Part shown: positions 8,386 to 18,642 of the stretch, piece by piece
Numbering within the stretch: the stretch's first letter is position 1
Layout: each line of letters opens with the position of its first letter
Virus record (IMG/VR): IMGVR_UViG_3300030110_001377
Coordinates: 1-23,611 of that record
Source: a virus
Length of the DNA stretch: 23,611 nt
Direction: 5' to 3' (one strand)
Translations under genes and position numbers: made by a program
The notes under the pieces: generated by a model
The model's database searches: none
The model's input: only the letters and a program-made list of their open reading frames with translations
What the model was told of the DNA's origin: nothing

Positions 8386-9543
8386 TTATTCCTCCTCTTT
8401 AAACTTAGTTGTTCTTTTGTGCATATACTCTAATAGATATAGTCCAAACATCTCAAGAATATCTTCAGTAGGTTTATTAAACCAATTATTTACATCTTCC
8501 TTGCTACATTTAGATAGCTCTATTCCCTTATTTATTATTATGTTTAATATGCTTATCCAATTAAGTATCTTCTCTTTATTTATTGTGCCAGAGTGTAGCC
8601 TAAATTCTATTGTACCGTGATAATATCTAGAGTGTATATTAAGAGCTGAGTATCTAGCGTCATTATACTTATCTGAACTAGGCTCACTACCCATATAATC
8701 ATAGTACGTATCTATTAAGTCTGACTCACTATCTATTCGAAGAAGAGTGTCCTTACTTATGTCGAAATCCTTACACCAATTAGAATCTTGCCTAGACTTA
8801 GGCATCATTGATTTTATCTGTTTTTGTAGACGTCTATATACTATACCTACGTGTGCTACTTCTCTTGCAGACATATCTGTAGAGTTAAAGTGTACGTGTA
8901 AACCACAACTTCTATTAACAGTTACGTCATTATTCCTCTTCCACCTCATTAATTTAGATAGACTATCTGCTAGTAGGTCTCCATCTGCAGGGTAAGATAC
9001 CATTTCTACACCTACATATTCTTCTGGTGGACTTATAGAACCATCACTATGTCTCTGCCAGAACTCAGGAGATTCACATTCGTAATTATATTCTGGAATT
9101 ACACACTCAACTTCTACACCTACTAATCTCTTAATAGGATATGTGAATGTACTAGAAGTCCTAGAGTAATTAGGTGGACAGCTATTAGTGAAGCTACTAA
9201 TCATACTACCAGATTCATCTGGTTCACAGCCTACACAGTACATACTATCATTTAAGTAGATAGAGTTGTCATTTTCTACTGGCTCTGAACAATGCTCACA
9301 GTAGCTATAATAATCATAGAAACAACTATCACAGTAAGTATCACCGCTACTATTTGAGTACCAGTCATCTATATGTATAGCATCAGAGCAACAAACACAC
9401 TCTGAGTAGCTATCATCAAAGCAAGGCTCACAAACCATAGCTTGTTCATTGTAGATTTCTATTGTCTCTGAACATTCAGAGCAACTAGGTGGAGGCTCTA
9501 CTCTCTGTGTTTGTGTAGGGTGCTGACTTTGTTGATAAGGCAT
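8386..9543 (-). CDS. Amidoligase (COOH-NH2 ligase) with N-terminal zinc ribbons, copy 1
   Basis: A 385-residue protein of two parts. Residues 21-106 contain six CxxC pairs (21/24, 38/41, 49/52, 71/74, 82/85, 103/106), which would make three zinc ribbons. From residue 140 it has the signature of the amidoligase branch of the glutamine-synthetase fold (Amidoligase_2): VGVEVE (141-146, metal-binding Glu144/Glu146), HSDGSI (165-170), VGVEMVS (177-183), CGLHVHF (213-219) and TIEFRLHSG (311-319). Such enzymes use ATP to join an amine or ammonia to a carboxylate. A good SD (AGGAG) lies 6 nt before the ATG. Two genes upstream is a glutamine amidotransferase, and beyond that a longer paralogue. Substrate unknown. 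It acts in the cytoplasm, as no signal peptide is present. Confidence 0.88.
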   Translation of the reverse strand: MPYQQSQHPTQTQRVEPPPSCSECSETIEIYNEQAMVCEPCFDDSYSECVCCSDAIHIDDWYSNSSGDTYCDSCFYDYYSYCEHCSEPVENDNSIYLNDSMYCVGCEPDESGSMISSFTNSCPPNYSRTSSTFTYPIKRLVGVEVECVIPEYNYECESPEFWQRHSDGSISPPEEYVGVEMVSYPADGDLLADSLSKLMRWKRNNDVTVNRSCGLHVHFNSTDMSAREVAHVGIVYRRLQKQIKSMMPKSRQDSNWCKDFDISKDTLLRIDSESDLIDTYYDYMGSEPSSDKYNDARYSALNIHSRYYHGTIEFRLHSGTINKEKILNWISILNIIINKGIELSKCSKEDVNNWFNKPTEDILEMFGLYLLEYMHKRTTKFKEEE

Positions 9544-9544
9544 A

Positions 9545-9868
9545 TCATACTCCTATATTACTTATTTCTATAATACCAACTACAAAAGCATTTACTACCT
9601 TCAGCCATTTCATATTCTTAAGTGCATCATACAAGCTAACTTCTACACAATCAGAGTCCATATCTATATCTACAGAACCAAGTTCCTTTATTTGTTTTTG
9701 TAGAAAATGCAGATACTCTTCGTAGCTACTATCGGCTAAGAATGGATTCCTCTTAGACTTCTCGTATATTTTTCTAATAACATACTCTTTAGACTTTAGC
9801 TTTATAGGATTAGGAAAACCTACAAGTATTACCTTCTTACTAGAAGAGTGATTCGTTTTTGTTTTCAT
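9545..9868 (-). CDS. Hypothetical protein inside the amidoligase cassette, 107 aa
   Basis: Starts 29 nt inside the amidotransferase gene with a GGGGGT SD and ends just before the copy 1 amidoligase. The sequence has a basic N-terminus (MKTKTNHSSSKK), a strand VILVGFPNPI, a helical middle, and a hydrophobic end (VVNAFVVGIIEISNIG). I do not recognise the family. Its fixed place between the two enzymes makes it a candidate partner, carrier or substrate of the system. Confidence 0.7.
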   Translation of the reverse strand: MKTKTNHSSSKKVILVGFPNPIKLKSKEYVIRKIYEKSKRNPFLADSSYEEYLHFLQKQIKELGSVDIDMDSDCVEVSLYDALKNMKWLKVVNAFVVGIIEISNIGV

Positions 9869-10877
9869 CTACACTACCCCCTTCGCTATTTTTTTCTCTA
9901 TAGGCATCTCCATAGTACTCACAATCAAAGCATACATTACTACCAGTAGCATCATTCCATATCTCATCTACTGGTGTATACTCATAGCAATAAGTACATA
10001 TCTCTCTTCTACCACTATCTGTAGAGCCAGATGTTATAAGATGACTACTAGCAGGGCTAGGGTTACTATCCTTAGAATAGTAGTTGTAATTTCTACCAGA
10101 CCAAGAACTACCACCATAAACACTATTTCTATAGCTATACTGACTAATAGTATCAAATGGTACTTGCTCTTGATTAGGTCTACTATCGAAGTTGTCAGTA
10201 TCATATGTGAAGATATAATCTTCTGGTACTGATTTAATAGGTAGGTTTAACCCAGCTCTAATCATAGCATCTTGCATTATAGCTTTAGTAGATGCCCAGA
10301 GTAATACTCTAGCCTTCTTCCAGTAAGCTACTACTATAGGTCTACCTGACTCTCTAGCTAGGTGTACCTTTCTATTGCTATCCTTAACCCAAGTAATAGC
10401 AAAGTCTCCATCTATTGACTCGAAGGCTTTATCCATCTGTATTCTATTCAATGATTGGAATAGAACTTGTGAGTCTACCTCTGGTACAGACTTACCTAGC
10501 TTTTTTGCTACTTGATTGTAATTATAGATAATACCATTGTGTACACCAGTAACATCACCTACATTAAATGGGTGAGCGTTATGCACTTTTACAGAGCCGT
10601 GAGTAGCAAGTCTCACGTGTCCCATAACAATAGTAGTATCTCTTGTTATTCTACTAAGAATATCAGTATCCCAGACATCTTTAGACACTAAAGATGAAGA
10701 GTCTAGTAGAGTCTTGTAGGTAAATCTATGTTCTGAATCCATTATAGAAAATCCAGTACTATCTTCACCTCTAACAGATGACTCATCTGTTAACTCTTCA
10801 AACACTCTCTTAAGTATGTCTAGTTGATTATCTGATTGTCTACCGCTAGTCTTAGCGAAACCAAATATACCACACAT
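9840..10877 (-). CDS. Class II glutamine amidotransferase with C-terminal zinc ribbon
   Basis: A 345-residue Ntn hydrolase that would release ammonia from glutamine. It starts MCGIFGF, so Cys2 becomes the N-terminal nucleophile after Met removal. Other class II residues are present: RGEDSTG (36-42), GHVRLATHG (86-94), NAHPF (100-104), VHNGIIYN (112-119), DSQVLF (135-140) and IDGDFA (155-160). After residue 225 comes a Ser/Tyr/Asn-rich linker and then a zinc ribbon (C294/C297, C316/C319). No synthetase domain is fused, so the ammonia must go to another protein, most likely one of the flanking amidoligases, which also carry zinc ribbons. AGGAG precedes the ATG, 17 nt after the copy 2 amidoligase stop. 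Confidence 0.93.
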   Translation of the reverse strand: MCGIFGFAKTSGRQSDNQLDILKRVFEELTDESSVRGEDSTGFSIMDSEHRFTYKTLLDSSSLVSKDVWDTDILSRITRDTTIVMGHVRLATHGSVKVHNAHPFNVGDVTGVHNGIIYNYNQVAKKLGKSVPEVDSQVLFQSLNRIQMDKAFESIDGDFAITWVKDSNRKVHLARESGRPIVVAYWKKARVLLWASTKAIMQDAMIRAGLNLPIKSVPEDYIFTYDTDNFDSRPNQEQVPFDTISQYSYRNSVYGGSSWSGRNYNYYSKDSNPSPASSHLITSGSTDSGRREICTYCYEYTPVDEIWNDATGSNVCFDCEYYGDAYREKNSEGGSVDENKNESLF

Positions 10878-10894
10878 TTAGTTTTCTCCTTTGT

Positions 10895-12703
10895 TTATTT
10901 GTTATCTATTCTACTTTCTATATACTCAGCACCCCACATACCCGTAACATCTCTAAGGATATCTAGAGCGTGAGTCTTTTTAGAAATTATTTTACTATAT
11001 AATCTAGGCTTATTACTTAATTCAGTAGAAGCATCCATTATCTTATTTAAAAATCTTATCCAATGTTTTATAGGTCTAGATTTAATAGAGCCTTCGTGAT
11101 ATCTGAACTCTATTGTACCCATATAGAATCTAGCGTGTATATTAGTACCTAGATATCTAGCCTCATTATATTTATTATCATTAATAGATGAATCAGCTAG
11201 GTCATAATATCTAGTTACTAGTTCTGGTAGTGTTTTTATACTAGCTATTTCTGTAGCTGACATATCTATATGCCTACAGTATCTATTTGAGTCGCTTCTA
11301 TATTCAGGTAGACTTTCATAAATTGCATTCTGTATTCTACTCATAATCATTAGTAGTGACTTTATTTCTATAAAATTAAAATCTACTGCATTTAAGTGTA
11401 TGTGTATACCACAAGATTCATCTACTGAATTATATTCATCTAGATTAACTTTTTCTAGTGATGTTAAGGCTGTATCTACTTCATCTCCTATTATTGGTCT
11501 ACTTGTAACAAACTCTACACCACCACTATTTAGAGAACCATCATCTACTACACTAAAATACTTCGGTATATATCCATTGTTCTCGTAATCATCTGCATCA
11601 TCATACTCAGAGATAACTTCGCTCTCTATACCTATAAACCTATTAAATTCACTTTTACTACCATACTTTCTAGGTAGGTCTCTACCTCTAAATGGGTTAA
11701 GTAGATATTGTTGTAGTAACAATGTTGCACAGCTATGACAATATGTTCTACTAAAAATATGCGAGTATTTACTTCCATTGTCTTTAAATCTTTGATACAC
11801 TAACCTTAGTTCTACGTTATTATCTAGACCTCTAACCTTATCCAAATCTATGTAATCTATACATTTACATCTAGTACAAGACTTGTAGAAATTATCCCAA
11901 CAGGTATTACAGCATATACTAACTTCAGCATCTTCACATATGCTTCTACTAGCCGAGTTACTGTCTATAGTAGCATCTACTACTCTACTTATTATATCTG
12001 TTTGTTGGCATACGTCACAATCTACATACTTAGTAAGGTAACACTTATCACAAACGTAGTCATCTACAAACTTTCTTATATCGCTTGTAGTTATACAATC
12101 ACAATACTTACAATTCTGGTACTCGTGAGAAACATTAGGAGATTCACTTATAATTCTCTTATATGTGCGTGTGTACTCTGTACGCAGATATCTTCTATTG
12201 GATTTAATTCTAGAATCATCTTTATCTACAAAATCTAAAGTCTGTATGTATTTATGTAGACCACTATCTAGTACATCAGAACTCGTTTGTATAAAATGAG
12301 ATAATTCGTAGATATCATCTTGTCTATACTTCATACCCATTATATAGATATAGTAGTTAAACCAAACATCCGTTTCATCTTCTTGACGTTCAAGAACTGT
12401 AGTAAATATATTTCTACTCATATACATTAGGTCTATAGCTCTACATAATATTCTATCACCATTTCTAGTTTCTATTAATACACCTAATGGATTTTTATCT
12501 ATTTCTAGATAATTGCTATCTACATTTGCAATATCTATTATTTTAGATATTCTACTCGATAGAGTTTGGTAGTCTTGCTTATGTACCCCACTACTTCTAT
12601 TGTATAAATCTAAGTCTTGTAGGTCTAAACAAAAACAATCATTAATATCTACATATCTAGCGTATCTAGTATTACATAGTATTACTTCATTTGAATAGAC
12701 CAT
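10895..12703 (-). CDS. Amidoligase with long N-terminal region and zinc ribbons, copy 2
   Basis: A 602-residue paralogue of the copy 1 amidoligase. Residues 1-190 are unique to it and have no recognised domain. Residues 198-325 hold many cysteine pairs (198/201, 218/221, 229/232, 265/268, 276/279, 322/325). The catalytic part follows: FIGIESE (356-362), VDDGSLN (386-392), GGVEFVTS (394-401), CGIHIHL (431-437) and TIEFRYHEG (530-538), matching copy 1 motif by motif. A shared KYN.ARY...NIH.R.Y segment just before the last motif shows descent by duplication. Both copies keep the metal-binding glutamates, so both look active. The different lengths suggest different substrates or the two halves of a complex. 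GAGAGG precedes the ATG, which lies within the end of a tiny membrane-protein gene. Confidence 0.85.
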   Translation of the reverse strand: MVYSNEVILCNTRYARYVDINDCFCLDLQDLDLYNRSSGVHKQDYQTLSSRISKIIDIANVDSNYLEIDKNPLGVLIETRNGDRILCRAIDLMYMSRNIFTTVLERQEDETDVWFNYYIYIMGMKYRQDDIYELSHFIQTSSDVLDSGLHKYIQTLDFVDKDDSRIKSNRRYLRTEYTRTYKRIISESPNVSHEYQNCKYCDCITTSDIRKFVDDYVCDKCYLTKYVDCDVCQQTDIISRVVDATIDSNSASRSICEDAEVSICCNTCWDNFYKSCTRCKCIDYIDLDKVRGLDNNVELRLVYQRFKDNGSKYSHIFSRTYCHSCATLLLQQYLLNPFRGRDLPRKYGSKSEFNRFIGIESEVISEYDDADDYENNGYIPKYFSVVDDGSLNSGGVEFVTSRPIIGDEVDTALTSLEKVNLDEYNSVDESCGIHIHLNAVDFNFIEIKSLLMIMSRIQNAIYESLPEYRSDSNRYCRHIDMSATEIASIKTLPELVTRYYDLADSSINDNKYNEARYLGTNIHARFYMGTIEFRYHEGSIKSRPIKHWIRFLNKIMDASTELSNKPRLYSKIISKKTHALDILRDVTGMWGAEYIESRIDNK

Positions 12704-12855: not shown

Positions 12856-13287
12856 TTACTTACTTTGTTCTACAGCCCAGTAGTAATCTAAATCTGGACT
12901 CTCTTCCCACTTGTACTTAGAGTAAAACTTGAAGTCTTTTCTAAGTAGGTTACTTCTATGAGAAGCGTGTACTCTACTATCACCCAACCAAGTGGGCATC
13001 TCTATAGAATCTGGCAGACCTACTAAGTCCATAGTATTATTATATCCTCGTAGTATCCATTCTTCTATCATTTTGTTTTTGTAGAGTAACAACGCTTCTA
13101 CATAGCCATCCCACATTAGAACGGCAGGATGATTTAACCAACCCTTATAGCTTCTGCCCTGTAGAGTTGGATTATCTACTAATACATTGTAGATTTGTAA
13201 TGCTTCTACTCTTTGTTTACCTAGTCTACGATAATCTAGTACTTGTGCAGATAGAGTAAAATCTTCATATGGTAAAAATGTTTGCAT
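12856..13287 (-). CDS. MSMEG_6728 / pyrimidine-dimer glycosylase-like protein
   Basis: A 143-residue protein with the hallmarks of the family annotated as MSMEG_6728 or pyrimidine-dimer DNA glycosylase (endonuclease V-like): MQTFLPY at the start, LDYRRLGKQRVEALQI (17-32), LNHPAVLMWDG (51-61) and HASHRSNLLRKD (107-118). Its length is normal for the group. The proposed role is removal of UV-damaged pyrimidine dimers, but few members have been tested. The ATG immediately follows the TAG of the small gene upstream. A weak SD (GGAT) is present. Confidence 0.85.
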   Translation of the reverse strand: MQTFLPYEDFTLSAQVLDYRRLGKQRVEALQIYNVLVDNPTLQGRSYKGWLNHPAVLMWDGYVEALLLYKNKMIEEWILRGYNNTMDLVGLPDSIEMPTWLGDSRVHASHRSNLLRKDFKFYSKYKWEESPDLDYYWAVEQSK

Positions 13288-15734: not shown

Positions 15735-15752
15735 TCATCTTTCTTTCTTTTA

Positions 15753-15770
15753 ATATTACGTTAGTAATAT
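15753..15770 (-). other. Hairpin in the P1 leader
   Basis: A perfect 7-bp inverted repeat, ATATTAC/GTAATAT, with a 4-nt loop, lying in the roughly 80-nt leader between the P1 start point and the first gene. It may be an RNA stem that affects translation or an operator. Confidence 0.4.
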
Positions 15771-15805
15771 ATTTTCTTTCTTTACTAAGTAAACTAAGTA
15801 GTTCC

Positions 15806-15818
15806 GGGTTTCGAACCC
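15806..15818. promoter_or_regulatory. Putative operator GGGTTTCGAACCC at the P1 start point
   Basis: A 13-bp dyad (GGGTT/AACCC around TCG) that overlaps the expected +1 of P1 (near 15816). It contains TTTCGAAC, which is repeated in the 14.9-kb region. A protein bound here would block early transcription. Confidence 0.5.
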
Positions 15819-15822
15819 TTAC

Positions 15823-15859
15823 AATATAATAACAAAACCTATATAAAGGCAAGTGTTTT
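15823..15859 (-). promoter_or_regulatory. Predicted main early promoter P1 (leftward)
   Basis: On the - strand: AAAACAC, -35 TTGCCT (15852-15847), 18-bp spacer, -10 TATATT (15828-15823). It matches P2 at nearly every position from AAAACACTTGCCTT through TTATTATATT. It lies upstream of all early genes and drives the leftward operon. Confidence 0.75.
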
Positions 15860-15887
15860 ATTAAAAAAGATAAAAATAAAATAACTC

Positions 15888-15917
15888 TTGCTTCATTTAT
15901 GTATTGTTTTCTAACTT
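15888..15917 (+). promoter_or_regulatory. Weak candidate late promoter P4 (rightward)
   Basis: CTCTTGCTT with -35 TTGCTT (15888-15893), 18-bp spacer and TAACTT (15912-15917), a poorer match to the family. Start would be near 15924, only about 6 nt before the ATG at 15930, so the mRNA would be nearly leaderless. It is divergent from P1, with 35 bp between the two -35 boxes. Confidence 0.4.
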
Positions 15918-15929
15918 AATACCGTTAAT

Positions 15930-16163
15930 ATGACCAAGATATTAAATATTGCTAGGCAACAATGTGCGAATTGGGACGTAGGTAGATGTATTGGCTGTGT
16001 GTTCAATCGCAACAATGATAAGCTTTCTATATCAATCAGTTCAAAACTGAGTGGTAAACAATGCATCGTTGAAGAAGGATGCGATTATTTCGAATCTGTG
16101 GTCATTCCGGGAATTGCTGACAATAATATGAGAGAGTCAGCTAAACTATCAAGAAAGTTATAG
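15930..16163 (+). CDS. Small cysteine-rich protein, 77 aa
   Basis: First gene of the rightward operon. The cysteine pattern C12, C19, C22, C45, C51 (CANWDVGRCIGC, then KQCIVEEGCDYF) resembles small phage zinc-binding proteins. There is no SD, and the predicted promoter leaves almost no leader, so initiation may be leaderless. Function unknown. Confidence 0.7.
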   Translation: MTKILNIARQQCANWDVGRCIGCVFNRNNDKLSISISSKLSGKQCIVEEGCDYFESVVIPGIADNNMRESAKLSRKL

Positions 16164-16459: not shown

Positions 16460-16566
16460 AAACAGCCATAGTCATAGTCACAATGATTTCTGGTAAGCTT
16501 TATTTCTTTATGGAAGCAATGTTTATTATTTGCCTAGTAAAAGTGCTTAAAGGGGTGATTAAGTGA
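16456..16566 (+). CDS. Tiny membrane protein, 36 aa
   Basis: Coupled at both ends: its ATG overlaps the upstream TGA and its own TGA overlaps the GTG of the phosphoesterase gene. GGAGATGAG acts as SD. Two hydrophobic stretches (AIVIVTMI and MFIICLVKVL) allow one membrane helix. Function unknown; far from any recognised lysis gene. Confidence 0.6.
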   Translation: MKTAIVIVTMISGKLYFFMEAMFIICLVKVLKGVIK

Positions 16567-17336
16567 AAAGAGCAATAGTTACCCCTGACAAGCACTTCCC
16601 ACTTGAAGATAAGAAGGCTATAAACATAGTATGTCAAGCTATTGAGCTTGTAAAGCCAGATATCTACATAGACCTAGGTGATACTGGGGAGTGGCAATCT
16701 GTATCACATTGGCAATGGAAAAAGAAAAAGAGACCTCCTCTTGAATATCAATTGCCATTTGTATACAAAGAAATAGAAGCTGTCAATAAAGGGATGGATA
16801 TAATAGATGCATCTCTAGATAAGGCAGGAACCAAAGAACGTCATTTTATAGAGGGAAATCATGAAGACTGGCTTAACAGGTTTGTTGAAGAAAATCCATA
16901 CTTGGCTGAAAACATACTCGTCAAGAATGCACTCCGTCTTGATGAGCGTGGATACAAGTATCATAAAATCGGAAAGATGCTCAAAATTGGTAAGATTCAT
17001 TTCTATCACGGTCATCATTTTGCAGGAATTAACCACACTCGTAATCATCTTCTTAGGCTCGGTGGTAATGTTATGTATGGTCACCATCATGATATTCAGC
17101 AAAGCTCTGCTACGCACATTGATGGGGTCAAATCAGCGTGGTCAATCGGATGTCTAAAAGATATGAGTGCTAACGCAAATGAATGGCTTGGTAATAGACA
17201 GCATAATTGGCAACACGCTTTTGCTATTGTAGACTTTCATAAGAATGGAAACTTCAATGTCACAGTTCATCAGATAGTGAATGGAGTAAGTACTGTAGAT
17301 GGAAAGATTTTAAATGCAAACAAGAAAAGTAAATAA
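16563..17336 (+). CDS. Calcineurin-like metallophosphoesterase
   Basis: A 257-residue two-metal phosphoesterase. It has the full set of motifs: DKH (9-11), DLGDTGEW (37-44, Asp40), EGNHED (97-102, Asn99/His100), FYHGHH (147-152) and YGHHHD (172-177). Such phage enzymes range from DNA end-processing nucleases to phosphatases on nucleotides; the short length and absence of a capping domain argue for a stand-alone phosphodiesterase or phosphatase. The start is GTG. It overlaps the TerS gene by 23 nt. Its place just before the terminase genes suggests late expression. Confidence 0.88.
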   Translation: MKRAIVTPDKHFPLEDKKAINIVCQAIELVKPDIYIDLGDTGEWQSVSHWQWKKKKRPPLEYQLPFVYKEIEAVNKGMDIIDASLDKAGTKERHFIEGNHEDWLNRFVEENPYLAENILVKNALRLDERGYKYHKIGKMLKIGKIHFYHGHHFAGINHTRNHLLRLGGNVMYGHHHDIQQSSATHIDGVKSAWSIGCLKDMSANANEWLGNRQHNWQHAFAIVDFHKNGNFNVTVHQIVNGVSTVDGKILNANKKSK

Positions 17337-18072: not shown

Positions 18073-18284
18073 TGAATCTATATGAGATAGTCATAGAAGT
18101 ACTGGAGTATGCCAATGAGGGCAAGATGAATCTTGATGATGAAATGTCAAGACAAAGCATAGCCACTGAGGTGTATGACCTATTCTATGAAAATCAAGTA
18201 TATTCTCCATATGTTGATAGTGGTTATATAGAAGACCTGAAAGAATATTGGCATTTTAGAGAAGACTTGAATGAAGACGAATAA
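18072..18284 (+). CDS. Hypothetical acidic protein, 70 aa
   Basis: Start shares a base with the TerS stop. Strongly acidic, helical at the N-terminus (YEIVIEVLEYANEGKMNLDD), with an aromatic end (EYWHFREDLNEDE). The stop overlaps the cyclotransferase start by 14 nt. No family recognised. Confidence 0.65.
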   Translation: MNLYEIVIEVLEYANEGKMNLDDEMSRQSIATEVYDLFYENQVYSPYVDSGYIEDLKEYWHFREDLNEDE

Positions 18285-18642
18285 GTTAGCAGTATACGGA
18301 ACACTTAGGAACGGTAAGCGAGACACTTGGAATGTGGATGGCTACCTAATGCTGTTTCCCGGTCATAGAAATTTTCCTGTTGCTATGGTTGACGATAGTC
18401 AAAAAGAATTAGTTGTAGAAATAATTGATGTTAACGAGTCTGATATACATAACTATGATGTATATGAGGGTGTTGACGCTGGTTTATATGAGAGAAGAAT
18501 AGTAAAAGCATATAACGACGATGAAGAGATAGACGCTTGGATGTATACAATGGGTACATTACTAATGCAACATAAAAATGTTTTTGAGATGGTTCCTAAG
18601 AAAGATTGGATGTGTGAAGAGTGTCTAAACCTAAGAAAGTAA
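18271..18642 (+). CDS. Gamma-glutamylcyclotransferase-like (AIG2/GGCT) protein
   Basis: A 123-residue protein with the GGCT fold signature: LAVYGTLRNG (6-15), where YGTL is the substrate-binding loop, then DVYEGVDAGLYERRIV (63-78), where Glu66 is the expected catalytic acid/base. These enzymes release 5-oxoproline from gamma-glutamyl amines or peptides. Length is near normal. It sits between the terminase genes, overlapping both neighbours. No GGCT role in packaging is known, so its link is more likely to the amidoligase/amidotransferase cassette on the other strand. Confidence 0.83.
   Translation: MKTNKLAVYGTLRNGKRDTWNVDGYLMLFPGHRNFPVAMVDDSQKELVVEIIDVNESDIHNYDVYEGVDAGLYERRIVKAYNDDEEIDAWMYTMGTLLMQHKNVFEMVPKKDWMCEECLNLRK

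Follow-up and report, generated by a model that had tools for sequence, protein, structure and literature searches.

The window, i.e., the whole 23,611-nucleotide stretch of viral DNA analysed here (positions 1 to 23,611 of IMG/VR record IMGVR_UViG_3300030110_001377), carries a single tight block of four minus-strand genes, whose open reading frames lie exactly where an earlier note on this DNA had placed them. The block encodes the amidoligase AmdL (10895..12703, 602 aa), a class II (Ntn) glutamine amidotransferase (GATase; 9840..10877, 345 aa), a 107-aa protein with a hydrophobic C-terminal tail, here termed m (9545..9868), and a second amidoligase, AmdS (8386..9543, 385 aa). AmdL and the GATase are separated by 17 nt, the GATase and m overlap by 29 nt, and m and AmdS are separated by 1 nt. 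Further, the AmdS Shine-Dalgarno sequence AGGAG (9550..9554, minus strand), recognized from the sequence and by comparison over 20 loci, is positioned within the final codons of m (I-G-V), 6 nt ahead of the AmdS ATG. This placement suggests translational coupling of m and AmdS and, taken with the spacing and overlaps, points to the cassette being a putative operon.

Both GC skew and gene direction flip at around 15750-15930, with the early/replication genes on the minus strand and those for packaging and virion structure on the plus strand. Immediately upstream of AmdL, in a position shared by many related phages, is a pyrimidine dimer DNA glycosylase (Pyr_excise, T4 endonuclease V-like, E 1.6e-22; 12856-13287, minus strand). 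On the plus strand, a 361-aa protein (409-1494) contains a stretch, HYTTGKRASSILEEGRI...VSITRDP, which by eye is like ADP-ribosyltransferase-like sequences, and gave no confident match to Pfam, NCBIfam or PADLOC models; a 257-aa protein (16563-17336) without a Pfam match has the look of a calcineurin-type metallophosphoesterase, with VTPDKHFP...DLGDTGEW...GNHEDW motifs. A search against Rfam gave no matches, and a promoter scan, which was left unused, returned counts barely higher than in shuffled sequences (50 versus 40.7 +/- 6.0). None of the cassette proteins matched the PADLOC models of known anti-phage defence systems.

Both ligases are significant matches to Amidoligase_2 (Pfam PF12224), with AmdS at E 5e-26 (92.5 bits) and AmdL at E 5.5e-23 (82.5 bits), i.e., about four times the curated cut-off of 22 bits, and PHROGs labels both as "amidoligase enzyme". 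AmdS combines a zinc-ribbon array (about 9226-9486) with the Amidoligase_2 domain, and AmdL displays an N-terminal part of about 190 residues, a zinc-ribbon array (about 11729-12112) and a C-terminal Amidoligase_2 domain of the GS/gamma-GCS fold. Its N-terminal part differs by lineage and is missing from the approximately 458-aa AmdL proteins of loci L041-L043. The AF2 model of AmdL (pLDDT 90) matches the YbdK, glutamate-cysteine ligase (GCL) and glutamine synthetase (GS) folds, with a best E of 1e-4. The motifs to which the earlier note had drawn attention, GVEVE/GIESE, CGLHVHF/CGIHIHL and EFR, are intact, and the underlying ExE, CGxHxH and ExR residues are unchanged throughout the alignments: E360, E362, C431, G432, H434, H436, E532 and R534 in 34 AmdL sequences, and E144, E146, C213, G214, H216, H218, E313, F314 and R315 in 35 AmdS sequences. 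In the same alignments the zinc-ribbon cysteines are invariant or close to it. Hence, both ligases are apparently active. Additionally, an alignment of the AmdL profile with that of AmdS spans 365 columns that include the zinc ribbons (hhalign E 1e-72), which identifies the two ligases as true paralogues, as had been claimed.

The protein encoded between the ligases is likewise the class II amidotransferase that had been proposed, with matches to GATase_6 (7e-19), GATase_7 and GATase_4, a profile match to GlmS in the PDB (3e-12) and the PHROGs labels "glutamine amidotransferase" and "aminotransferase". Across 36 sequences it conserves Cys2, which follows Met1, R89, the NAHP and HNG motifs and D135, so that the nucleophile and the glutamine-binding residues are present, and it terminates in a zinc ribbon (about 9921-9998) with conserved C294, C297, C316 and C319. 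On account of these family assignments and the intact active sites, it is highly probable that the cassette uses glutamine as the source of ammonia for ATP-dependent amide formation on carboxylates. The GATase would hydrolyse glutamine via Cys2, the ammonia would be passed to the GS-fold ligase AmdS, and AmdS would use ATP to activate a carboxylate, the resulting acyl phosphate then being converted to the amide.

The zinc-ribbon arrays would also suit a nucleic-acid or a protein target, and their presence in AmdL, AmdS and the GATase raises the question of a role in phage nucleic-acid modification or in a tRNA amidation resembling that of GatCAB, in which the ribbons would bind nucleic acid and the ligases would amidate a carboxylate on a base or an aminoacyl-tRNA. 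GatB shares a GS-like fold, and GatC is a linker of about 100 residues. The parallel extends only to an ammonia source, a kinase or ligase with a GS-like fold and a linker protein of about 100 aa; GatA is an amidase rather than an Ntn GATase, and no sequence relationship of GatCAB to the cassette is claimed. The genomic context argues against such a target: the window contains no tRNA genes, a base-modification gene set is not obvious in two relatives read ORF by ORF, and thymidylate synthase (PF00303) was found in 0/24 genomes of the clade. The last observation also led to rejection of a thymine hypermodification cluster, for which a thymidylate-synthase-like hydroxymethylase would be needed. 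Accordingly, a nucleic-acid target is regarded as very improbable.

The fourth protein, m, is the best conserved of the cassette (54% mean column identity), with K11, G17, K27, Y35, N41-P42-F43, L83 and W88 invariant. In line with the earlier note, which lists it as unknown, it could be assigned to no described family: no Pfam model matches it, and no relatives were recovered from bacterial genomes, annotated phages or the PDB at the sensitivities used. Its AF2 model combines a confident alpha/beta core with a hydrophobic C-terminal tail that is of low confidence and left disordered; a fold search with the model found no counterpart in the PDB, and its viral matches were uninformative. In 37/37 members, the 15-residue stretch of highest hydrophobicity is close to the C-terminus. 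The family was found at 61 viral loci, exclusively in phages with a GATase and an AmdS as well, and wherever the flank is available m adjoins the GATase and/or AmdS, its position being between the two. A relationship to the helper of about 190 aa from LUZ24-type modules was considered and rejected (hhalign probability 0.1%).

These features bear on the possibility that the modified target is not the cell wall but a protein or peptide, with m itself as the substrate or carrier that is amidated or linked by both ligases, much like Pup or the amino-group carrier proteins. The small size of m, its exceptional conservation, its conserved yet disordered tail and its location between the GATase and AmdS genes would all accord with this. 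However, its NIGV terminus in the window's clade coincides with the AmdS Shine-Dalgarno sequence and is thus conserved at least partly because that signal is encoded there, which weakens the candidacy of this tail as a Pup-like C-terminus. In other clades m ends in NYGI(A/S/T), with the Shine-Dalgarno sequence at or after the stop codon. The final position of m is variable (V, S, A, T or G), and no C-terminal glutamate or glutamine is invariant. Further, AmdS-GATase pairs without m exist (see below), which indicates that m is dispensable for the basic chemistry. A role as substrate is therefore considered unlikely. With roughly even chances, m is instead a structural subunit of the GATase-AmdS unit; as a fixed part of that predicted complex it could serve as a scaffold, a component of an ammonia channel, a membrane adaptor or, with less likelihood, an acceptor.

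Related cassettes define a clade, i.e., a group of uncultured bacterial viruses in which the gene order AmdL-GATase-m-AmdS is conserved. Queries with single AmdL or AmdS sequences produced almost no matches in viral contigs, and it was a scan with the GATase, which yielded 58 loci, followed by queries with alignments, that succeeded. Among 50 whole contigs, exactly two Amidoligase_2 genes are present in 45 and four in one contig of 63.9 kb; the contigs other than these 46 are fragments or unrelated phages. The 63.9-kb contig (IMGVR_UViG_3300030101_002855) has two cassettes and two gamma-glutamyl cyclotransferase genes and has the appearance of a fusion of two related phage genomes or of an assembly error. 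When loci were instead picked by their terminase, which makes the selection independent of the cassette, the GATase, m and AmdL were carried by 22/22 of those whose upstream sequence extends for 9 kb or more, and AmdS by 20, the gene being undetected within the available stretch of the other two; the co-occurrence expected from the earlier note is thus borne out. Across 34-36 diverse members, no substitution affects the catalytic residues of the two ligases or of the GATase.

A further associate of the cassette lies outside the region covered by the earlier note, namely a gamma-glutamyl cyclotransferase (GGCT; GGACT/AIG2 family, 18271..18642, plus strand), which is unlinked to the cassette yet co-occurs with it. 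It matches Pfam GGACT (PF06094) at 1.1e-10, with 42.6 bits against a cut-off of 22.8, and has the YGTL and YEG...YxRR motifs as well as the catalytic Glu region. The gene is found in 39/50 contigs, including all 23 cassette contigs of at least 35 kb, and in 66/66 terminase-selected loci with an upstream stretch of 1 kb or more. The GGCT would remove or recycle gamma-glutamyl units, although it is unlinked and may act on ordinary gamma-glutamyl compounds. In phage ZRK32, a GATase, an amidoligase, a glutathione synthase and a GGCT have been proposed to be auxiliary metabolic genes (PMC10945688), and by extension the cassette could be part of a general nitrogen or glutamine/glutathione gene set supplying the infected cell. 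Bulk metabolism would hardly call for a pair of divergent ligases plus a dedicated m subunit in a genome of about 45 kb, and neither the window nor the two relatives showed any further nitrogen genes; hence, this too appears improbable.

The clade also includes lineages without AmdL. At loci L133, L134, L172, L176/L184, L178, L179 and L128, all on incomplete contigs, AmdL is absent and GATase-m-AmdS is kept; at L133, L172, L176 and L178 the GATase gene is directly adjoined by the glycosylase gene, whose usual place is ahead of AmdL, and each of these incomplete contigs has one Amidoligase_2 gene. In the ligase tree, the cassette ligases form one clade (97/97), as does AmdL (96/93), and AmdS proteins of the AmdL-less lineages are nested within AmdS. 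The simplest reading of this topology would be a single ancient duplication, after which AmdL was lost at least twice. The core of the cassette is GATase-m-AmdS, and AmdL would be a second ligase derived by duplication of AmdS or of a common ancestor, providing an extra linkage or substrate and capable of being lost. The earlier note had put forward two substrates or a hetero-complex; as AmdL is missing from some lineages, neither a fixed pair of substrates nor an obligate complex of AmdL with AmdS is required.

The prediction of a peptidoglycan-modifying module on which later phage papers rest reportedly goes back to Iyer et al. 2009. A putative "peptidoglycan modification module" has been described in LUZ24-like, phiEco32-like, RIO-1-like and Zobellviridae podoviruses (PMC5498523, PMC11945000, PMC3890496) and is thought to alter the host surface against superinfection (PMC5498523, PMC11945000, PMC10580990); in phage HP1, the module genes are expressed immediately upon infection (PMC7082346). 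The gene set of these phages comprises COOH-NH2_lig, a helper of about 190 aa, Amidoligase_2, a class II GATase and an ATP-grasp protein, with a GGCT in several. The window's clade shares with it the combination of Amidoligase_2, class II GATase and GGCT in one phage, the presence of a pair of GS-fold ligases on either side of the GATase or close to it, and the location in the early/replication region. The doubling of the ligase around the GATase is therefore not unusual in itself, contrary to the earlier note, since LUZ24/phiEco32/RIO-1-type phages have two GS-fold ligases and an ATP-grasp protein beside the GATase. The unusual features are that the two ligases are zinc-ribbon paralogues belonging to a single family, PF12224, unlike those of the LUZ24/phiEco32-type module, that the COOH-NH2 ligase and the ATP-grasp are missing, and that m, a new protein, is obligate. 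COOH-NH2_lig (PF14395) and RimK-type ATP-grasp (E<=1e-3) were each detected in 0/24 clade genomes as against 6/6 control phages. By gene list, the clade is consequently not a member of the LUZ24/phiEco32 module, nor can the three-linkage peptidoglycan scheme be transferred to it; by analogy, its cassette may be viewed as a new version of that module, comparable to it in the predicted chemistry.

Simpler versions occur elsewhere. Arthrobacter phage Salgado, an actinobacteriophage, carries GGCT, amidoligase and GATase genes together, i.e., the same three kinds of enzyme, with a single ligase and neither a second copy nor m. AmdS-GATase pairs without m or AmdL, in the order AmdS-GATase and with the AmdS domain architecture retained, are found in other phages, Omnitrophica and Clostridia (L193, L195, L196, L211-L213, L255, L278). 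Zinc-ribbon pairs in Omnitrophica MAGs lie at L211 7968-10254, L212 5189-7560 and L213 254-2732, the first of them in a T4SS-bearing conjugative element (TraG, TraC, RadC), and one Clostridia genome has two amidoligase-GATase pairs in tandem (L256 4070-10153). The bacterial pairs are flanked by T4SS genes (TraG/TraC) or by resolvase and DUF960 genes, as would be expected of a function in competition between mobile elements.

The best overall explanation, to which we assign a probability of roughly 0.5, is that the cassette is an early-region set of carboxylate-amidating enzymes, probably serving to remodel the infected cell, with m as a subunit, AmdL as an add-on and the host envelope as the target. 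It would act in the early region in the place filled by the peptidoglycan module of the LUZ24/phiEco32/RIO-1 phages, altering a host envelope peptide against superinfection. The target is the more tentative part: an envelope peptide is favoured by the analogy to that module, by the GGCT and by the recurrence of the genes in both phages and conjugative elements, and it carries more weight than the protein or peptide, nucleic-acid and metabolic readings, but we place it at clearly less than even odds. A bolder formulation, which we consider rather unlikely as a whole, would have GATase-m-AmdS as an obligate three-subunit ammonia-channelling amidotransferase, with m as an undescribed linker and AmdL as a second specificity, constituting a tool of mobile elements that exists in simpler form in phages and conjugative elements.

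Phage amidoligase-GATase modules are widespread, and for more than a decade their cell-wall role has been assigned by prediction alone; the literature consulted yielded no biochemistry of a phage Amidoligase_2-GATase pair. The present clade reduces the module to a GATase-m-AmdS core that is small enough for expression and assay, adds m as a newly named obligate component, and offers in its AmdL-minus lineages a natural genetic comparison. It also ties the phage module to the simpler pairs in conjugative elements, and together these features make the question of the substrate directly testable.
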